A DNA stretch of 64,000 nt from Vicinamibacterales bacterium (lineage in GTDB: Bacteria; Acidobacteriota; Vicinamibacteria; Vicinamibacterales; SCN-69-37), in NCBI GenBank assembly GCA_030827135.1, contig JAURFE010000007.1:1-64000 (forward strand), given 5' to 3'. Position 1 is the stretch's first letter; every line of letters begins with the position of its first letter. Below are positions 7,731 to 55,304 of this stretch, in pieces. A program made the translations under genes and the position numbers. The notes beneath the pieces were generated by a model. It was not told where the DNA came from and ran no database searches. It saw only the letters and a program-made list of their open reading frames with translations.

Positions 7731-9618
7731 ACATCTGCTTCTCCAGACTGAGCGGGTAGGAAATCGCGACGTCCACCACCGTGCCGGCGGCGTCGTGCAC
7801 AAGGGCAAGCTCGGGCTGCACAAAGCCGGTGTACGACGGCAGATTCAGCTTCTGCACACGCGCCACGATCTCGTCGCGCAGCGCAGGATCAAAATGAATC
7901 CCGTAGGTTTCAAACAGATGCTTCGCGGCCGCGTAGTCACCCGTGGATTTGATGCGCTGCACTTCGCCGAGCAGGCGCCCCACGCCTTCGTGGAAGGCCG
8001 CGGCATCCACCATCACGTAGTAGGTCTTGCCGTCACGCGTTCTGGATTCGATCGCTTTCGTATTCGCCATCAGCCAGTGCACAATCGCCTGACGATTGCG
8101 CATGTGGTCCTCTTCGATCGTCGTGCCTTCGCGAATCCGGCGGAGCTGCACGAGCGCATTACGCGCGTAGGCTTCGTATTCGGCCTGGACGATCTCCGCC
8201 TGATGTTCCGCCGGCACCATACCGATTTCCGCGATCTTCGGCTCGCCCACAAAGTACAACGCCACAAGATCCGCGCGCGTCTCTTCAAGTCCGGCGTACT
8301 GCTCTTTCAACGCGGCTTCCGGACGGCCGCCAAGATGCGCCTCGACGACGCCGCTGCCGTGCCCCAGCACCTCATGAATCGCCGTCGTCACTTCACTGGC
8401 CAGCGACCCCCACTTCTCGGCCCGGGCGACCTCCTCGGCAGACCAGCAGAACTCCTGGCGATAAGAGGGCGGCAGAGACTTGTCGTACGCCTCATTGACG
8501 TTGGCCAACGACACGGACTTGCTGCCATGTTGCTCGCGAATCAACTGATCGTTCGGCAGGTTGATCCCGATGGGCGTCACCGGACCGGAGTCGCCCGTTT
8601 CCATGACGACATCGATGGCCCGCGCGGTGACGCCGACGACACTCGTGCGGCGCCACTTCGCCTCCCAGGGCATCCGATCTTCGAACCACTGCGCCGACTG
8701 CGCGAGGCGATGAATGCTCTCGGTCTTCCCGGGGTTCACGTAGAAGACAAGCGCCTCCCAGGCGCCCTTCACTCCACGCGCGTCCATGTAGTTCTCAATG
8801 AAGCCGTTGATCGTATCGACCGGTGATTCCTTGTCTTCAACCCAGGCGATGTCGTACGCCACCCGATCGACGTCCTCGCCTGTCTCGTAGAACTTCACCA
8901 GTGCGTCAAGCGCCGTCTGCATCGCGGGCGTGGCAAATGGCCGCGCGGCTGTCAGGTGGGCGACGATCCGGGAGATGTAGTCGCCGTACAGACCGGAGAC
9001 CCGTGCCACTTCCTCGACCAACCCGGTGTCGGTCTTGACCAGGCGCGAGTTGAGGCCGTACTTCTCCTCGAAGCCATCAAGATCGGCCATCAAAACGCCT
9101 GAATACAGATTGTTCGCACTCTCGAGCAGGATGTCCTTGCCGTCGCCCGGGGACTTGTTGGTCACAAGGGGCTCTGAGGTGGCGTCGAAAAACGCGGACT
9201 TAAGCGCGTGTCCCCAGGGCTGAAGCCCTGAGGCCCCATTTATGCGGTCCGCGGTCGCCAGCGCATCAAGAAACGCTTCTTCTGAGCACTTCAACACGTA
9301 CTTGCGCGCCGTGAGGTTGTTGTACGGCCCCGTGTTGATCCAGAAGAGTTTTGTGTAGCGGCGAATCTCGGCCAGCGTGGCCGGATCAAAGGCTGACGAA
9401 TCGATGCGGCCGGCGCGGATGACGGATTCGAGGAGTCCGCGCATCTGGAGGTTGTGCCGGTACCGCTGGTCCCAGTAGATGTCGCGACCGGCAATCGCCG
9501 CCTGCGTCAGATGCCAGATGAGCAACTTGTCGTTCAACGGCAGCGCGGAAAAGCCGTCGGCGTAGAGCTGGACCACGGCGGCTTCGTCGATTTGTTCAAG
9601 CAGGTACTGTCGCTCCAT
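7708..9618 (-). CDS. Dipeptidyl-peptidase III family (M49) metallopeptidase
   Basis: A 636-residue protein of the M49 type. The zinc motif appears as HEVLGH at residues 415-420, followed by GSGVVEAHLGG and the second motif EETRADL near residue 443, which supplies the Glu ligand. M49 enzymes release dipeptides from the N-terminus of peptides. There is no obvious signal peptide, so it is probably cytoplasmic. The start at 9618 (MERQYLLEQIDE) was preferred to the ORF start at 9735, which would run far into the neighbouring gene. It sits 5 nt after the beta-CASP gene on the same strand. A hairpin sequence lies in frame within it at 9215-9230. Confidence 0.85.
   Translation of the reverse strand: MERQYLLEQIDEAAVVQLYADGFSALPLNDKLLIWHLTQAAIAGRDIYWDQRYRHNLQMRGLLESVIRAGRIDSSAFDPATLAEIRRYTKLFWINTGPYNNLTARKYVLKCSEEAFLDALATADRINGASGLQPWGHALKSAFFDATSEPLVTNKSPGDGKDILLESANNLYSGVLMADLDGFEEKYGLNSRLVKTDTGLVEEVARVSGLYGDYISRIVAHLTAARPFATPAMQTALDALVKFYETGEDVDRVAYDIAWVEDKESPVDTINGFIENYMDARGVKGAWEALVFYVNPGKTESIHRLAQSAQWFEDRMPWEAKWRRTSVVGVTARAIDVVMETGDSGPVTPIGINLPNDQLIREQHGSKSVSLANVNEAYDKSLPPSYRQEFCWSAEEVARAEKWGSLASEVTTAIHEVLGHGSGVVEAHLGGRPEAALKEQYAGLEETRADLVALYFVGEPKIAEIGMVPAEHQAEIVQAEYEAYARNALVQLRRIREGTTIEEDHMRNRQAIVHWLMANTKAIESRTRDGKTYYVMVDAAAFHEGVGRLLGEVQRIKSTGDYAAAKHLFETYGIHFDPALRDEIVARVQKLNLPSYTGFVQPELALVHDAAGTVVDVAISYPLSLEKQMLNWGAGC
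9215..9230. repeat. In-frame hairpin (CAGGGC-TGAA-GCCCTG) inside the M49 gene
   Basis: The perfect 6-bp arms CAGGGC and GCCCTG flank TGAA at about codons 130-135. The encoded stretch GASGLQPWGHALKSA looks like a loop between two better-structured segments. It could be a repeat element that landed in frame or an ordinary coding coincidence. Confidence 0.35.
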
Positions 9619-18119: not shown

Positions 18120-18176
18120 GGCGCACTGGGTGGTAGTGCGCCGCGTCGGCGCGCTCAAACCCAGCGCGCCCTACGT
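18114..18176. terminator. Hairpin repeat element C, two hairpins in inverted orientation
   Basis: The element runs from ACGTAG (18114-18119) to CTACGT (18171-18176). Hairpin 1: GGCGCACT (18120-18127), loop GGGTGGT, AGTGCGCC (18135-18142). Hairpin 2: GGCGCGCT (18148-18155), loop CAAACCC, AGCGCGCC (18163-18170). It fits exactly between the stop codons of two convergent genes and includes parts of both. A bidirectional terminator role is inferred from position. Confidence 0.7.
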
Positions 18177-48702: not shown

Positions 48703-49167
48703 TCAGGGCTGCAGGCTCTTTATGATCCCTGTCGTGGACCAGCCCTGTTCGATGGGCATGCGCACGACGCGGCCCCCGCGGGCCTCGACGACGTCGCGGC
48801 CGACGATCTTGTCCTCGGCCCAATCCGCACCCTTCACCAGCACGTCGGGTTGAACGGCAGAAATGATGTCAAACGGCGTGTCCTCGTCAAACACGACGAC
48901 GGCGTCCACACACGCCAGGGCGCCCAGCACCTCGGCGCGTTCGTTCTGTGGGGTAATCGGACGCGTGGGTCCTTTGATGGCGCTGACCGAGCGATCCGAG
49001 TTGATGGCGATGATCATCGTGTCCCCTTCAGCCCTCGCGGCCTGCAGGTACCGGACGTGCCCGGGGTGGAGCAGGTCGAACACTCCGTTCGTGAACACCA
49101 CGCGCCGGCCCGCGGCGCGGGCCCGCGCGGCCCAATCGGCGGCGTCAGTGCGAGACGTGAGGAACAT
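48703..49167 (-). CDS. rfaE2: D-glycero-beta-D-manno-heptose 1-phosphate adenylyltransferase (RfaE domain II)
   Basis: A 154-residue nucleotidyltransferase with the cytidylyltransferase-fold motifs [19 protein letters not shown], and the STTGIIKSL ending (ISSSxxI type). It makes ADP-heptose for the LPS inner core. It is a separate protein, not fused with the kinase domain as in HldE. Its start overlaps the stop of the VapC toxin gene (TAATG), and mfd follows 25 nt later, so vapBC, rfaE2 and mfd may share a transcript. Confidence 0.9.
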
Positions 49168-49613
49168 TAGTCGTCGGTTCCTGGTTCGACTCCGTCCAGC
49201 ACGAGCCGGTCGAGGCCGGCGATGGAATTGAAGTCATGATCGAAGGTTAGGAGGCACGCCCCCTGGTCGAGGGCGCAGGCGGCGATCCAGATGTCGTTGG
49301 TAGGGATCGGAGTACCTGCGCGGCGCAGGCCGGCGTAGACGCGACCGTAGTGCCGAGCGACGTCTTCGGAGACGGGAATAGTTCGCACAAACGGCTCGGT
49401 CAGAAATTCACTCAAGGCGACGCGGTTCTCAAGCGCACGCGAACCCATCTCAAAGCCACCATGAAGCTCACCGAGTACTGGAGCGGGAACAAAGACCTGT
49501 TCCGCTTCCGCGATGAGATCTCTGACGCGGGTGTCACCGGCCCGGAACCTCGAGTACGCGGAGGTATCGAGCACCAGCTTCCCAATTCGTTCCAATTCAC
49601 CGCCAGAGGTCAT
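49167..49613 (-). CDS. vapC: VapC-type PIN-domain toxin
   Basis: A 148-residue PIN nuclease. The acidic site is present: Asp in [11 protein letters not shown], Glu in VLGELHGGF, and Asp residues in [13 protein letters not shown] and [10 protein letters not shown]. VapC toxins cut specific tRNAs or rRNA when freed from the antitoxin. It overlaps the antitoxin gene by 17 nt, the normal arrangement of a TA pair, and its stop overlaps the start of rfaE2. Confidence 0.9.
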
Positions 49614-49839
49614 GGTCTATTCCTCGCTGCACGCGCAGGGCCGCGTCAAACTCTGTGCGGTCTCGAGGAGACCATGTCATGTATCGGTCCAGCCGCCGCC
49701 GGCGTTCATCAATACCGACAGCCGCCTCCAGAATTCCAAGTGCCACCGCATTCACGCTCTTGCCCGAAGATTTCGCCTGGTCCGACAGGCGGCGGTTCAG
49801 TTCGTCGGAAACTCCTCGGATTGTGAGCTGCGAAGGCAT
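49597..49839 (-). CDS. Ribbon-helix-helix antitoxin (FitA/VapB-like)
   Basis: An 80-residue antitoxin. The N-terminus SQLTIRGVSDELNRRLSDQA, with AKSSGKSVNAVALGILEAA, matches FitA-type ribbon-helix-helix proteins. The C-terminal half would wrap the toxin. It is expected to repress its own operon as a complex with VapC; direct repeats upstream fit this. Confidence 0.88.
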   Translation of the reverse strand: MPSQLTIRGVSDELNRRLSDQAKSSGKSVNAVALGILEAAVGIDERRRRLDRYMTWSPRDRTEFDAALRVQRGIDHDLWR

Positions 49840-49915: not shown

Positions 49916-50692
49916 GTGGCTCCCGACCGCGCTCGTCGCATCTCCCGTCTCGCCACCCGCTTCGAGCGGACCCATGCCGTACGGCTGACGATGCTGCTCG
50001 TGGTGGGGATTGGTGCGACGGTCGGCTTCCTCACGTCGGCGTTCCTGCTATGGGCCGGGGTCTGGTACATGCCCGTGCGGTATGCGGTGGCGTGTGTGCT
50101 CGGGTATGCGGCGTTTGTCGCCCTTATGAATCGCTGGCTTGGGGTGCAAGCCGACCGCGAATCGGGCAGCAACGTGGTTGAGCACGCGGTGGACACACTG
50201 GACCTGACGGGGCCGATTCTCCGGATACCCGGCCGGCCCGGGGGTGGGAACACTGTGCCGGGAGGGGTTTTTGAGGGTGGTCGGTCAGGTGGTGCCGGCG
50301 CAGCGGCGGCTTTCGGAAGCCCTGCCGCGCCGCCACCGATCGTTGTGGCGCCGGCCTCACATGGTTCATTGAATTCATCCAACTCGTGGATGCCTGACCT
50401 GGATGATGACGGCTTGAAGTTGCTGCCCCTCTTCGCGGTCATCGCGATCATCGTCGGCCTCTTCGCTGCCGTCAGCGTCGTCTGGTCCGCGCCGCACCTG
50501 CTGGCGGAGATTCTCGTGGATGGCGCCATCGCCGGCGGTGCGTATCAGCGGCTGAAGCAAACCGGCTGGACCGGCGGCATCATCCGCCGCACCTGGAAGC
50601 CCATGCTTGCGATCTTCCTCGCGTTCGTCCTACTCGGATTCGCCGGCCACTACTTCAATCCCGCGGCGGACTCGATCGGGGACTTCTTCTAG
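49916..50692 (+). CDS. Membrane protein of unknown function
   Basis: A 258-residue protein with two hydrophobic helices near the N-terminus (TMLLVVGIGATVGFLTSAFLL, YAVACVLGYAAFVALM), a Gly/Pro/Ser-rich loop (about 95-165) and two further helices (LFAVIAIIVGLFAAVSVVW, MLAIFLAFVLLGFAGHYF). The middle loop is low-complexity and acidic at DLDDDG. I do not recognise a family. The start is a GTG at 49916. It diverges from vapBC and overlaps the convergent small gene by 4 nt. Confidence 0.65.
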   Translation: MAPDRARRISRLATRFERTHAVRLTMLLVVGIGATVGFLTSAFLLWAGVWYMPVRYAVACVLGYAAFVALMNRWLGVQADRESGSNVVEHAVDTLDLTGPILRIPGRPGGGNTVPGGVFEGGRSGGAGAAAAFGSPAAPPPIVVAPASHGSLNSSNSWMPDLDDDGLKLLPLFAVIAIIVGLFAAVSVVWSAPHLLAEILVDGAIAGGAYQRLKQTGWTGGIIRRTWKPMLAIFLAFVLLGFAGHYFNPAADSIGDFF

Positions 50693-50907: not shown

Positions 50908-50942
50908 CACAACATGCCTCCTATGCGACGACGATAGCATCG

Positions 50943-52906
50943 TCAGATGACTGGAATCCCGAGACCTGCCAAGTAGTTGAAGGTTGGGTCGTAGAATTCA
51001 GGACGTCTGATGTGATCCGTAGGGTGCCCAGGAGGGACACAGATGGCCATACCTTGCCGTGCTCGCGTCAGCAGAACACGATAGGCATTTCTCAGGTAGT
51101 GTTGATTCTCTTCTTTTGAGACCCTCTGCCATTTGCTGCCGCGAAAGGAGTGGTGACTCCAAGACGACGCGCCAGACCGGAGATCTGCGTCCCATGTCAC
51201 GCAGGCCCAATCGAGTTCAAGCCCCTGAACTTGAAACTCGGTCGCAGCGTCCTCGAGGTAATAGCTGGAGCGCGTGTCATCCCGGTCGTTGAGAAACCAG
51301 TGAACAGGATTCACTTCGACTCTGATATCGACTGCGTGGGGCTTGAGGCGCTGCGCACCTGATGAAGCGACCAAGCCGAATCGTTCAGACCCTCTTGCTT
51401 TTTGCCTCACCCAGTCCTTCGCTGCGTCCAGGTTCCGAGTCAGAACTATTGGGTATCTTTGCAGGGTGTCTGCCAGTAACGCCTTCGCATCGCTGCCTTG
51501 ACGAAACGTGACACGTTCTCGGCCCGAAACGACCGCATCGACACGGCGAGGTGGAGACTGGGATCCTCAACGAGCTTTGCTCTGCCTGCAAGGTGCGTGA
51601 CTGCGTGGCCAGCGTCGTACTCGCTGTCTACCAGCTGTGGGGAGATGTACGCCGTCCAACTGTTGAACGATGTCGCGACCGCATCGAGCCACGCTGAAAT
51701 CCCCGCTTCACCCCTGTTGATTTCCTGGCCTCCACCAACCAGACAAATCACGACTGCCCAATCAGGGTGACGATCGAGATATGAGAGAAGGACCTCGGGC
51801 TCGGATTGGGAAAAGCCTGGGCGCCCCTTTTTTCGACGCATGAAATCGCTGGTCATCGCGCGATCCCATGCTCGCTGCGCCTCATCAAAGATGACCACGC
51901 GGTCGCTCGGAGCGCCGATGTGCTTCAGTCCCTCATCCCTGAAGTGATGGACGTTCTGAATGAATGGCTTAATCTTTTGGACGACGTGGCCCTTCCTGGC
52001 AGTACCATTTGCGCGTTTGATTCGCGCCATTTCGTCTCGCGCAAGCGCCTCGGTCAATACCTTGACCAAGGGACCGTTGCCAGACAGGAATACCGCATGG
52101 GCAGGATCCTGTTCTCCGCTACGACGAGTTGCGATATTCAGACCGACCAAAGTCTTACCGGCGCCTGGGACTCCCGTGACAAAAACTATGGCCTTCTTGC
52201 CTGAGGTTCTGGCCTCATCAATGATGTCCTCCACCCTGACCGAGGTGATCGTCAGGTTCTCGCCCGCCTCAGATGCCGCAATGGCTTCAACCGAGTGACG
52301 GGCATACAAGGCTTGGGCTGCTTCGATAATCGTCGGTGTTGGCTGGTAGGGTGAGGCCACCCAATCGCTCGGATCGATCGGAGTGCCAGCTAGTGAAGAT
52401 GATGCGGACTCGATCACACTTCGAAGACCGGCTGCGTTGCACGTGGTGGGACGGTGCACACCGTCGTCAGCTGGGGGCGCAATCGATAGCGGAACAGCGT
52501 CGATTTCAGTGGCTACCAGAACGGGCAGTATTCGAGCGTGATGACTTGCGCGGTGAAAGTTCTTCAGATCAAGCGCGTAGTCCCATGCCTGGTTGTAGTC
52601 CGCAAGGTTGATTTTGCGTTCGCCGACTTTGAACTCAACAACTGCGATGAGAGGGCCAGTAATGATCACCGCGTCAATCCGGCTTCCGATTCGTGGCACC
52701 TCGAACTCTAGAAAGATTGCGCCTGGGATCCCAGTCAGACTCTGCCGAAGGATTTCGATTTCACCCAGCCAAGCATCTCGTTGGGGTGGGTCAACGGAGT
52801 AGTTGCTCCTGGTCGTGAGCGCACCGATGACAGAGTCGGCACTTGCGCCAAGGAACTCGTCTATCGTGGCGGCGTAATACGCCCGCAGGGTAGTCAGCAA
52901 AGGCAT
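50943..52906 (-). pseudogene. Frameshifted nuclease-helicase (DUF2075 / Schlafen-group-3 type)
   Basis: Two adjacent reading frames make one protein. The first (52906-51446, 486 residues) has an N-terminal PD-(D/E)xK-like nuclease (IGSRIDAVIITGPLIAVVEF then KVG) and the helicase Walker A in FVTGVPGAGKTLVGLN, with Walker B-like VVIFDEAQRAWDR. The frame then shifts: the second part (from about 51481 to 50943) continues the same family with ALLADTLQRYPIVLTRNLD, WFLNDRDDTRSSYYLEDAA, TEFQVQGLELDWACV and NAYRVLLTRARQGM. One missing base near the AAGG at about 51481-51485 explains the break. Related genes occur in defence and accessory islands. G+C is lower than around it. Confidence 0.85.
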
Positions 52907-53033
52907 TCCTGAGGTGGCGCCAGGTTATCACCAGTCACGCAGACACCCGGCAGAGGGTTGGCGTGGAGGCGGTTGGCCGACTGCGAGCGACGCGAAAGCG
53001 AAGTCCGAAGAACGTCACGGAAGGGGGGGACAG

Positions 53034-53145: not shown

Positions 53146-54471
53146 CTACTCGGGGCTCTTGAACTTCACGCCGTCCGAGAAAGTCCAGCTGTGTTTCGGG
53201 CGATAGACGCCGGCATCCTTGACGCGGGACTTCACGCGGAAGGTGTGGAGCAGGCGGTGGTAGTCGTAGGGGCCACCGTCGCGTTTGTGGACGGCGACGT
53301 CAAGTTTGTAGGTGCCTTCGACGAGGTCAAGCGACTCGAGGAGCAGGTTGACCGTGGCCTCGCCCTCGAGGTGGTCTGACACGTACTGTTCGATGTCGGT
53401 GTTGGTGCCGTAGACCCAGACGCCATCGGCCGTGAAGATGCCGAAGCCAAACACGAAGTCCTGCACAGGCGCTGAGGCCTTGACGCCGAGGGCCACTCGG
53501 AGCGACTCGCCACTCTGAATCACCTGCGTCGGCTGGCCGGCGGCGTCGAGGAACTCGACGGAGGTGATCTGGACGCCGCCCGATCCCCAGCGGCCTTCGC
53601 CGGCGGCATTCATGTTGTCAGGGAGGGCCTCCGGCGCCGCAAGTGTTTCGGGTTCCGGTTGCCCTGCGCCGCCGGCTTCGTCCTGCGCCTTCGCATCAGT
53701 CGCCGCCAGGAACGTCTCTTCCTGCTTCGAGACATCCGTCACATACACGCCAACAACCCGCTTGGGATCGCCTTCGGCCTTTTTCTCGCCGCCATCAAGC
53801 CACACGGCCTCATCGCAGAACCGCTCCACGAGGCCCAGCGAGTGGGTGACGAGCAGGATCGTCTTCCCGCGGCGGCGGAACTCACCGAACTTGTCGAGGC
53901 ACTTGTGCGTGAAGCCTTCGTCCCCGACGGCCAGCACTTCGTCCACAAGCAATACGTCAGGGTCCACGTGGATCGCCACGGCGAAGCCAAGCCGCATATA
54001 CATGCCGGACGAGTACGTCTTCACCGGCGCGTCGATGAACTCGGTCAACTCGGCAAACTCGACGATCTGGTCGAAGCGCTGTTCAATCTCCCGCTTCGAG
54101 AGACCGAGCATGATGCCGTTGATGAAGACGTTTTCACGCCCTGAGATTTCAGGATGAAATCCGGCGCCCAGTTCAATCAACGCCGAGATCCGGCCTTGAA
54201 CAGTGACCGTCCCCAACGTGGGCTTGGTGATGCCCGCGACCAGCTTCAACGCCGTGCTCTTGCCGGATCCGTTTCGGCCGACCACGCCGTACGTACAGCC
54301 CTTCGGCACACTGAACGACACGTGCTTCAGCGCCTGAAACGTCTCTTCAGGTTTCAGCTTCCTGACAAGATCGCCCGAGAGCAAGGCGCTCTTCAACGTG
54401 GAGAACTGCCGGCCACCATACCGTCGGTAGATCTTCGAGACGTCGTCGAGAACGATGGCTGGCGCCTTCAC
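53146..54471 (-). CDS. wzt: Polysaccharide ABC exporter ATP-binding protein (Wzt type)
   Basis: A 441-residue ATPase. The nucleotide-binding domain (1-250) has Walker A VVGRNGSGKSTALKL, signature region KTYSSGMYMRLGFA, Walker B VLLVDEVLAVGD and switch His in LLVTHSLG. The C-terminal 150 residues (from about 290) form a Wzt carbohydrate-binding beta-sandwich that recognises the finished O-antigen end (GVQITSVEFLDAAGQ, FVFGFGIFTADGVWVYGTNT). It starts at GTG 54471, overlapping the permease stop (GTGA). A Glu/Ala/Pro-rich linker joins the domains. Confidence 0.92.
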   Translation of the reverse strand: MKAPAIVLDDVSKIYRRYGGRQFSTLKSALLSGDLVRKLKPEETFQALKHVSFSVPKGCTYGVVGRNGSGKSTALKLVAGITKPTLGTVTVQGRISALIELGAGFHPEISGRENVFINGIMLGLSKREIEQRFDQIVEFAELTEFIDAPVKTYSSGMYMRLGFAVAIHVDPDVLLVDEVLAVGDEGFTHKCLDKFGEFRRRGKTILLVTHSLGLVERFCDEAVWLDGGEKKAEGDPKRVVGVYVTDVSKQEETFLAATDAKAQDEAGGAGQPEPETLAAPEALPDNMNAAGEGRWGSGGVQITSVEFLDAAGQPTQVIQSGESLRVALGVKASAPVQDFVFGFGIFTADGVWVYGTNTDIEQYVSDHLEGEATVNLLLESLDLVEGTYKLDVAVHKRDGGPYDYHRLLHTFRVKSRVKDAGVYRPKHSWTFSDGVKFKSPE

Positions 54472-55304
54472 ACCGCCTCCGCAAAGGAATCGCGCAGGCG
54501 GTCGAAGAACCAATATGCGGCGAGGAACAACACGACCGAGCCTCCGCCCAGCGCCAGCAGCCACGACTTGTGACCAAATGGCCCGACATGGAAGAGCACT
54601 TCCTGGTAGGACACGGCCAAATGGAAAAACGGATTCCAGTTGAACCAGTGCAGGTACTGACTGAAGGCAGCGGAGGCGTCGACGTTACCGGCAGCGCCTG
54701 AGACCGGCTTGAAGAGCTTGTAGTAGTAGATGATCGGTGTCGCAAAGAACCAGAAGGTCAGCAGGTTCGACAGCAGGTCGCGCACATCGCGGAAGTGCAC
54801 CGTCAGCGCGGAGAGAAAAAGCGCGAGTGCCATCGTGAATAGGAACTGGATGGCGACGATGACCGGAAACCACCAGAGTTCGTTCCAATCCGGAAGGTGG
54901 CCGGTCCACAGCATGAAGCCGGCGAGAATGGGAAGGCCAAGCACGAAGTGCATCATGCTGGCGACCACGCTGACGATCGGCAGAACCTCCGCCGGGAACA
55001 GCACCTTCTTGATGAGGTTGCCGCCGGAGATCAGCGATCCCGCGGACTCATTCAGCGCAGACGAGAACCACGTCCACGGCAGCAACCCGCAGAACATGAA
55101 GAGCGCGTAGGGCTGAATTTCTTCGATGGCGCCGGTGAGGAGATTCGTGAATACCCAGTTGTAGATCAGCAACAACATGAGGGGATTCACGAAGGACCAG
55201 AAGAACCCGAGGAAGCTGCCCCGGTACCGCGCCTTCAGATCCCGCACCACCAGGCTCTGAATCAGCCCACGGTAGCGCACCAGATTTCTCAGGTTATCGA
55301 ACAT
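54468..55304 (-). CDS. wzm: Polysaccharide ABC exporter permease (Wzm type)
   Basis: A 278-residue ABC-2 permease with six helices. The N-terminal LVVRDLKARYRGSFLGFFWS and NPLMLLLIYNWVF are characteristic of Wzm/KpsM-like exporters of O-antigen or capsule. It works with the ATPase encoded next. The ATG at 55304 overlaps the PP2C gene end by 11 nt, so translation is coupled to a signalling gene. No glycosyltransferases for the repeat unit lie adjacent. Confidence 0.92.
   Translation of the reverse strand: MFDNLRNLVRYRGLIQSLVVRDLKARYRGSFLGFFWSFVNPLMLLLIYNWVFTNLLTGAIEEIQPYALFMFCGLLPWTWFSSALNESAGSLISGGNLIKKVLFPAEVLPIVSVVASMMHFVLGLPILAGFMLWTGHLPDWNELWWFPVIVAIQFLFTMALALFLSALTVHFRDVRDLLSNLLTFWFFATPIIYYYKLFKPVSGAAGNVDASAAFSQYLHWFNWNPFFHLAVSYQEVLFHVGPFGHKSWLLALGGGSVVLFLAAYWFFDRLRDSFAEAV

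Follow-up and report, generated by a model that had tools for sequence, protein, structure and literature searches.

A probably inactivated nuclease-helicase gene of the PDC-S41 candidate defence type and its small neighbouring gene at a variable chromosomal site of a Vicinamibacterales bacterium

The reading that we favor, with a probability of about 0.6, is that the nuclease-helicase gene described here is a horizontally exchanged single-gene PDC-S41 enzyme at a variable chromosomal site that was recently inactivated by a 19-nt deletion, that its intact form would cut invader DNA and that an adjacent gene for a 72-residue protein would be an optional companion. The gene lies in the window, which is the whole stretch of 64,000 nucleotides analyzed from a Vicinamibacterales bacterium (contig JAURFE010000007.1). 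The features of the locus are:

48703-49167: sugar-nucleotide-type transferase gene, one flank of the site, named from sequence
49167-49839: VapBC-type pair, i.e., a PIN toxin (PF01850) and a FitA-like ribbon-helix-helix (RHH) antitoxin (PF22513)
49916-50692, plus strand: 258-residue open reading frame (ORF), common only to the window and congener G004 at this site, 90% identity
50689-50907, minus strand: gene for a 72-residue acidic protein (pI 4.3), orphan family, putative companion gene (basis: dN/dS, seven copies and an AF2 model)
50930-50944, minus strand: short inverted repeat GACGATGCTATCGTC immediately upstream of the small gene, retained in G004
52906 to 50943, minus strand: whole nuclease-helicase gene (PADLOC PDC-S41, Pfam Schlafen group 3 helicase)
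51482-52906, minus strand: its 5' part, N-terminal PD-(D/E)xK-type nuclease domain and first RecA lobe (PDC-S41, SLFN-g3_helicase, fold order)
50943-51490, minus strand: its 3' part, second RecA lobe in a different frame (PDC-S41, SLFN-g3_helicase, identity to G004)
51478-51492, minus strand: frame break with a net loss of 19 nt, as intact relatives have a near-invariant spacing of 126 nt
53146-54564: ABC-transporter ATPase gene, the other flank of the site, named from sequence

An earlier note, made from the sequence alone, had described a DUF2075/Schlafen group 3-type nuclease-helicase in a defence-type locus, interrupted by a frame break. The interruption is real, as the two minus-strand frames (51446-52906 and 50943 to about 51490) match consecutive parts of one PADLOC profile, PDC-S41. 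Of its 657 positions, 3-468 were matched by the 5' frame with 598 bits and 499-652 by the 3' frame with 243 bits. Past the break, the 5' frame runs out of register up to a stop at 51446. Similarly, Pfam family PF09848 (SLFN-g3_helicase) was matched with 129.3 bits by the 5' part and 100 bits by the 3' part, so that both lobes were above the gathering cut-off of 24. These matches and the model fold described below bore out the family and the domain order, and the match to PDC-S41 supported the idea of a defence-type locus. The uninterrupted frame of PDC-S41 is missing from the window and present in congeners G003 and G006 as well as in most other relatives. The family of the broken gene is ordinary and already catalogued, and PDC-S41 is a candidate defence gene; the PDC label stands for a candidate gene (PMC11514479).

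The intact G003 homologue, modelled with AlphaFold on an alignment of 36 sequences (pLDDT 84), was predicted to have a PD-(D/E)xK-type core at the N-terminus, followed by a two-lobe SF1B motor. In the numbering of the intact homologue, the predicted core has the order alpha-beta-beta-beta-alpha-beta (helix 55-72, strands 78-85, 90-98 and 101-108, helix 116-132 and strand 141-147), and the D...(D/E)xK signature lies within it. Residues D93, K108 and Q121 are invariant and E106 is near-invariant among the 36 homologues, and the nuclease signature ID...EFK is retained in the window. The first RecA lobe contains the Walker A motif GVPGAGKT and the Walker B motif DEAQ. Moreover, of the 158 columns that are invariant in the 36 homologues, the window deviates at only two, including one at the break. 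Its catalytic residues are intact.

The closest solved folds to the G003 model were those of SLFN11, SLFN14, RecD, Upf1 and Dna2; no match was found between the helicase alignment and the sequences of solved structures. The motor resembles those of human SLFN11/14 in fold only, and in the window a PD-(D/E)xK-type N-terminal domain precedes it. Similar to the window family, Dna2 joins a PD-(D/E)xK nuclease to an SF1B motor. The motor fold is also like that of the SF1B helicases Dna2 and RecD, but identities are about 12-15% and the distribution of the window family is defence-type. Nhi is a single-gene nuclease-helicase of Staphylococcus (PMC12904381), to which the window protein may be compared as a functional analogue with nuclease and helicase in one polypeptide. 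Membership in Nhi was rejected, as the match covered only 32 residues around the P-loop with 16 bits. With PDC-S41, the window shares the full-length profile, in two pieces, and the domain order. PDC-S41 is a single gene in most genomes, whereas the window copy has a broken frame and, unlike most members, a small gene after it.

The helicase gene is at a variable site with a conserved gene on either side. The same site is empty in G001 (202 bp), lacks a nuclease in G005 (589 bp), holds the helicase without the small gene in G003 and holds both in G006. Of two G004 contigs, one terminates with an HNH nuclease and the small gene, the other with the 3' end of the helicase and the small gene. The vapBC pair that had been noted beside the helicase was found as an adjacent PIN toxin (PF01850, 56 bits) and RHH antitoxin (PF22513, 36.5 bits), although the PIN toxin did not reach the VapC equivalog cut-offs of NCBIfam. 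Among the congeners compared, the pair is inserted only in the window. VapBC was rejected as part of the unit because three helicase-carrying congeners have the same site without it.

The lower G+C content reported for the region was also found, being 0.57 in 51001-53000 vs. 0.62-0.64 in the bins on either side (49-51 and 53-54 kb). At fourfold sites, the helicase differed from G004 at 45 of 71, compared with 520 of 1302 in five pooled neighbours, which were mfd, the transferase, the 258-residue ORF at 49916-50692, the ABC ATPase and PP2C (Fisher p = 1.6e-4). Two further neighbours outside the pool differed at 57/110 and 57/268 of such sites. The higher divergence at fourfold sites, together with the lower G+C, points to an exchange of helicase alleles. 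No convincing flanking repeats, integrase or transposon ends were found at the locus. A 30-base palindromic repeat, GTCGGCGCGCTCAAACCCAGCGCGCCCTAC, at 18144-18175 of the window is an exact match to positions 8089-8120 of locus L103, in the G004 intergenic stretch before the small gene, and looks like a REP-type element.

The small gene at the end of the region was confirmed as a 72-codon ORF, and the good ribosome-binding site described for it is of the GGAGG type ahead of the ATG. Its dN/dS relative to G004 was about 0.09, and it is a real gene under purifying selection. The inverted repeat GACGATGCTATCGTC is kept before both G004 copies despite their different upstream nuclease genes. No match to the small gene was found in Pfam, NCBIfam, PHROGs or PADLOC. 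Among 193 genomes of the taxonomic class, seven copies were identified in six genomes; two weaker matches (E about 0.005) look like chance. All seven are beside a defence-type nuclease, which is PDC-S41 for five, an HNH nuclease for one and a Type IV restriction enzyme for one. In the window, G004 and G006, the small gene is about 35-45 nt downstream of PDC-S41. In G134 and G135, which belong to another family of the same order, it is directly upstream. The second G004 copy is downstream of the HNH nuclease (PADLOC HNH, 2.5e-20), and that of G133 is convergent with the Type IV restriction enzyme (901 bits) and hence not in one operon with it. The copies are found at two unrelated chromosomal sites, in two genera and two bacterial families.

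The earlier note had also suggested a search of relatives for the intact gene and its neighbour, with a two-gene system in mind. The intact gene was recovered, as stated above. The small gene adjoins the helicase in 5 of the 14 class genomes with PDC-S41, and it was absent from all 80 helicase loci taken from the general collection of genomes and from the sampled genomes in the rest of the phylum. A two-gene system as a general rule was therefore rejected, given that most helicase homologues are without the small gene. What survives is a lineage-specific association that is broader than proposed, as HNH and Type IV neighbours are included. Five of the six genomes with the small gene also have the helicase (hypergeometric 5e-6 in 193 genomes, uncorrected for relatedness). 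Because it is absent from the rest-of-phylum sample and the 80 general-collection loci, the small gene would be a companion that defence nucleases can do without, and it may act as a regulator or inhibitor. This putative companion gene is the novel part of the locus and was previously unnamed.

It is possible, although somewhat unlikely, that the small gene only travels as a passenger or resides in integration hot spots, its proximity to nucleases reflecting shared hot spots and not function. All copies of genus g1 are indeed at one site and all those of genus g38 at another, and the helicase is kept without the small gene in G003 and most homologues. However, the nuclease-free sites of G001, G005 and G055 (the last at the g38 site, which is likewise variable) are also without the small gene, its position relative to the helicase is downstream in one genus but directly upstream in the other, and purifying selection acts on it. 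That the small gene is a fixed resident of the site was rejected, as empty sites lack it.

The AF2 model of the 72-residue protein is helical (pLDDT 85.5), and no solved structure matched it; the alignment of the small protein gave only chance-level matches to sequences of solved structures. Small phage proteins of 55-62 residues (such as A0A7S5V2I8 and A0A6M3T2R1) have a similar predicted fold (Foldseek probability 1.00, TM 0.67-0.86), but the E-values are 0.08-0.11 and they have no sequence family in common with it. A weak match was found in Mycobacterium phage Kumao (E 0.04), and plasmids and viral contigs gave no credible match, only one 10-residue chance match. A wider proposal, which we regard as speculative and unlikely, is that the 72-residue protein is the first member of a new family of dedicated companions, acting as inhibitor, sensor or immunity factor for PDC-S41, the HNH nuclease and the Type IV restriction enzyme alike. 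It may derive from a tiny phage protein, in which case a phage-like protein would restrain or trigger the nuclease.

The break is at about 51480-51490, where the earlier note had placed a single missing base (51481-51485). The stretch from SMRSF to TR spans 42 codons (126 nt) in nearly all listed relatives and 41 in three, but it is 107 nt in the window. A one-base error was therefore rejected, since the window is 19 nt short of a near-invariant spacing. The loss removes conserved residues that follow FVKA. The 3' part is 91% identical to G004 in amino acids and 77% in nucleotides, with a third-position identity of 0.47. The 91% protein identity despite 47% third-position agreement suggests that selection acted on the 3' part until recently. 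Moreover, a lesion of 19 nt and not 1 makes a homopolymer or base-call error unlikely. Given that the other conserved sites are intact and that selection at the protein level was recent, the break most likely reflects a true and recent inactivation.

An assembly or binning artefact, through a misjoin or a mixture of strains, with an intact gene in the living organism, is rather unlikely. The window comes from a draft of 80 contigs, all conserved residues but one are otherwise intact, and a contig of G004 stops at the equivalent of 51458, no more than about 30 nt from the break, such that both assemblies may stumble at the same place. Nevertheless, a clean 19-nt loss is unlike homopolymer or base-call errors, and other copies carry different lesions. 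The PDC-S41 copy of G011, from the same taxonomic family, has a frame-breaking deletion of about 105 codons (L004, 2840-2970). That of the cultured Limnohabitans parvus II-B4 has a nonsense codon at about 8406 of L070, after 136 residues of the aligned stretch, and a nonsense codon is also found in the copy of L088. Inactivation of PDC-S41 thus recurs with differing lesions, as would be expected for a costly defence gene.

Around the relatives, a scan without control of 129 nearest-neighbour proteins revealed HNH, Fic, HipA, restriction enzymes and other PDC genes as well as gyrase, ThiC and a tRNA synthetase. No general conserved partner of the helicase was found in the wider family. Other small orphan genes were seen beside it. 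In L051 (7679-7936), L072 (7581-7934) and L080 (7677-7931), a gene for 85-117 residues is 43-61 nt upstream of PDC-S41, and this lineage may have its own small companion. In L053, L057, L063, L067 and L070, a gene for 136-151 residues (PVYG...KPGMYLGLFHGRD) is downstream of the helicase on the opposite strand. The two copies scanned of each gene had no Pfam match. In the open-access literature, we found no antiphage test of PDC-S41, no paper on PDC-S41 and no link of DUF2075 to phage defence; the papers that turned up on DUF2075 in general were unrelated. The protein is quite unlikely to be a general repair or RNA-processing helicase with no defence role. A repair or RNA-processing role would accord with an SF1B fold common to Upf1, RecD and Dna2 and with the housekeeping genes among the neighbours, but the presence is patchy (14 of the 193 class genomes, with empty sites in sister species), the G+C content is lower, alleles appear to be exchanged and the helicase is also present on a few plasmids and in a single record labelled as phage.

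As a PDC-S41 defence enzyme, the intact protein would load on single-stranded or end-containing invader DNA and travel along it by its Schlafen/RecD-like SF1B motor, while the N-terminal PD-(D/E)xK nuclease would cut the DNA, by analogy with Nhi or Dna2. The acidic helical 72-residue protein may modulate the nuclease, as a regulator or inhibitor that limits self-damage. The first frame of the window would yield only the nuclease and the first motor lobe, and the enzyme should be dead because the second lobe is lost. That the pieces still work, made separately or joined by ribosomal frameshifting, is highly improbable: both keep all key residues, but the arrangement is seen in no relative, conserved residues are encoded by the missing bases and the second piece has no obvious start with a ribosome-binding site.

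Intact copies of PDC-S41 exist in cultured bacteria, among them Solimonas fluminis (L048), Rhodoferax bucti (L078) and Limnohabitans sp. (L053). The occurrence of the small gene with three nuclease types, in two families and at two sites, is what one would expect of a transferable regulator of defence enzymes. If its companion role is true, the small gene would offer a way into the question of how solo defence nucleases avoid harming their own cell.
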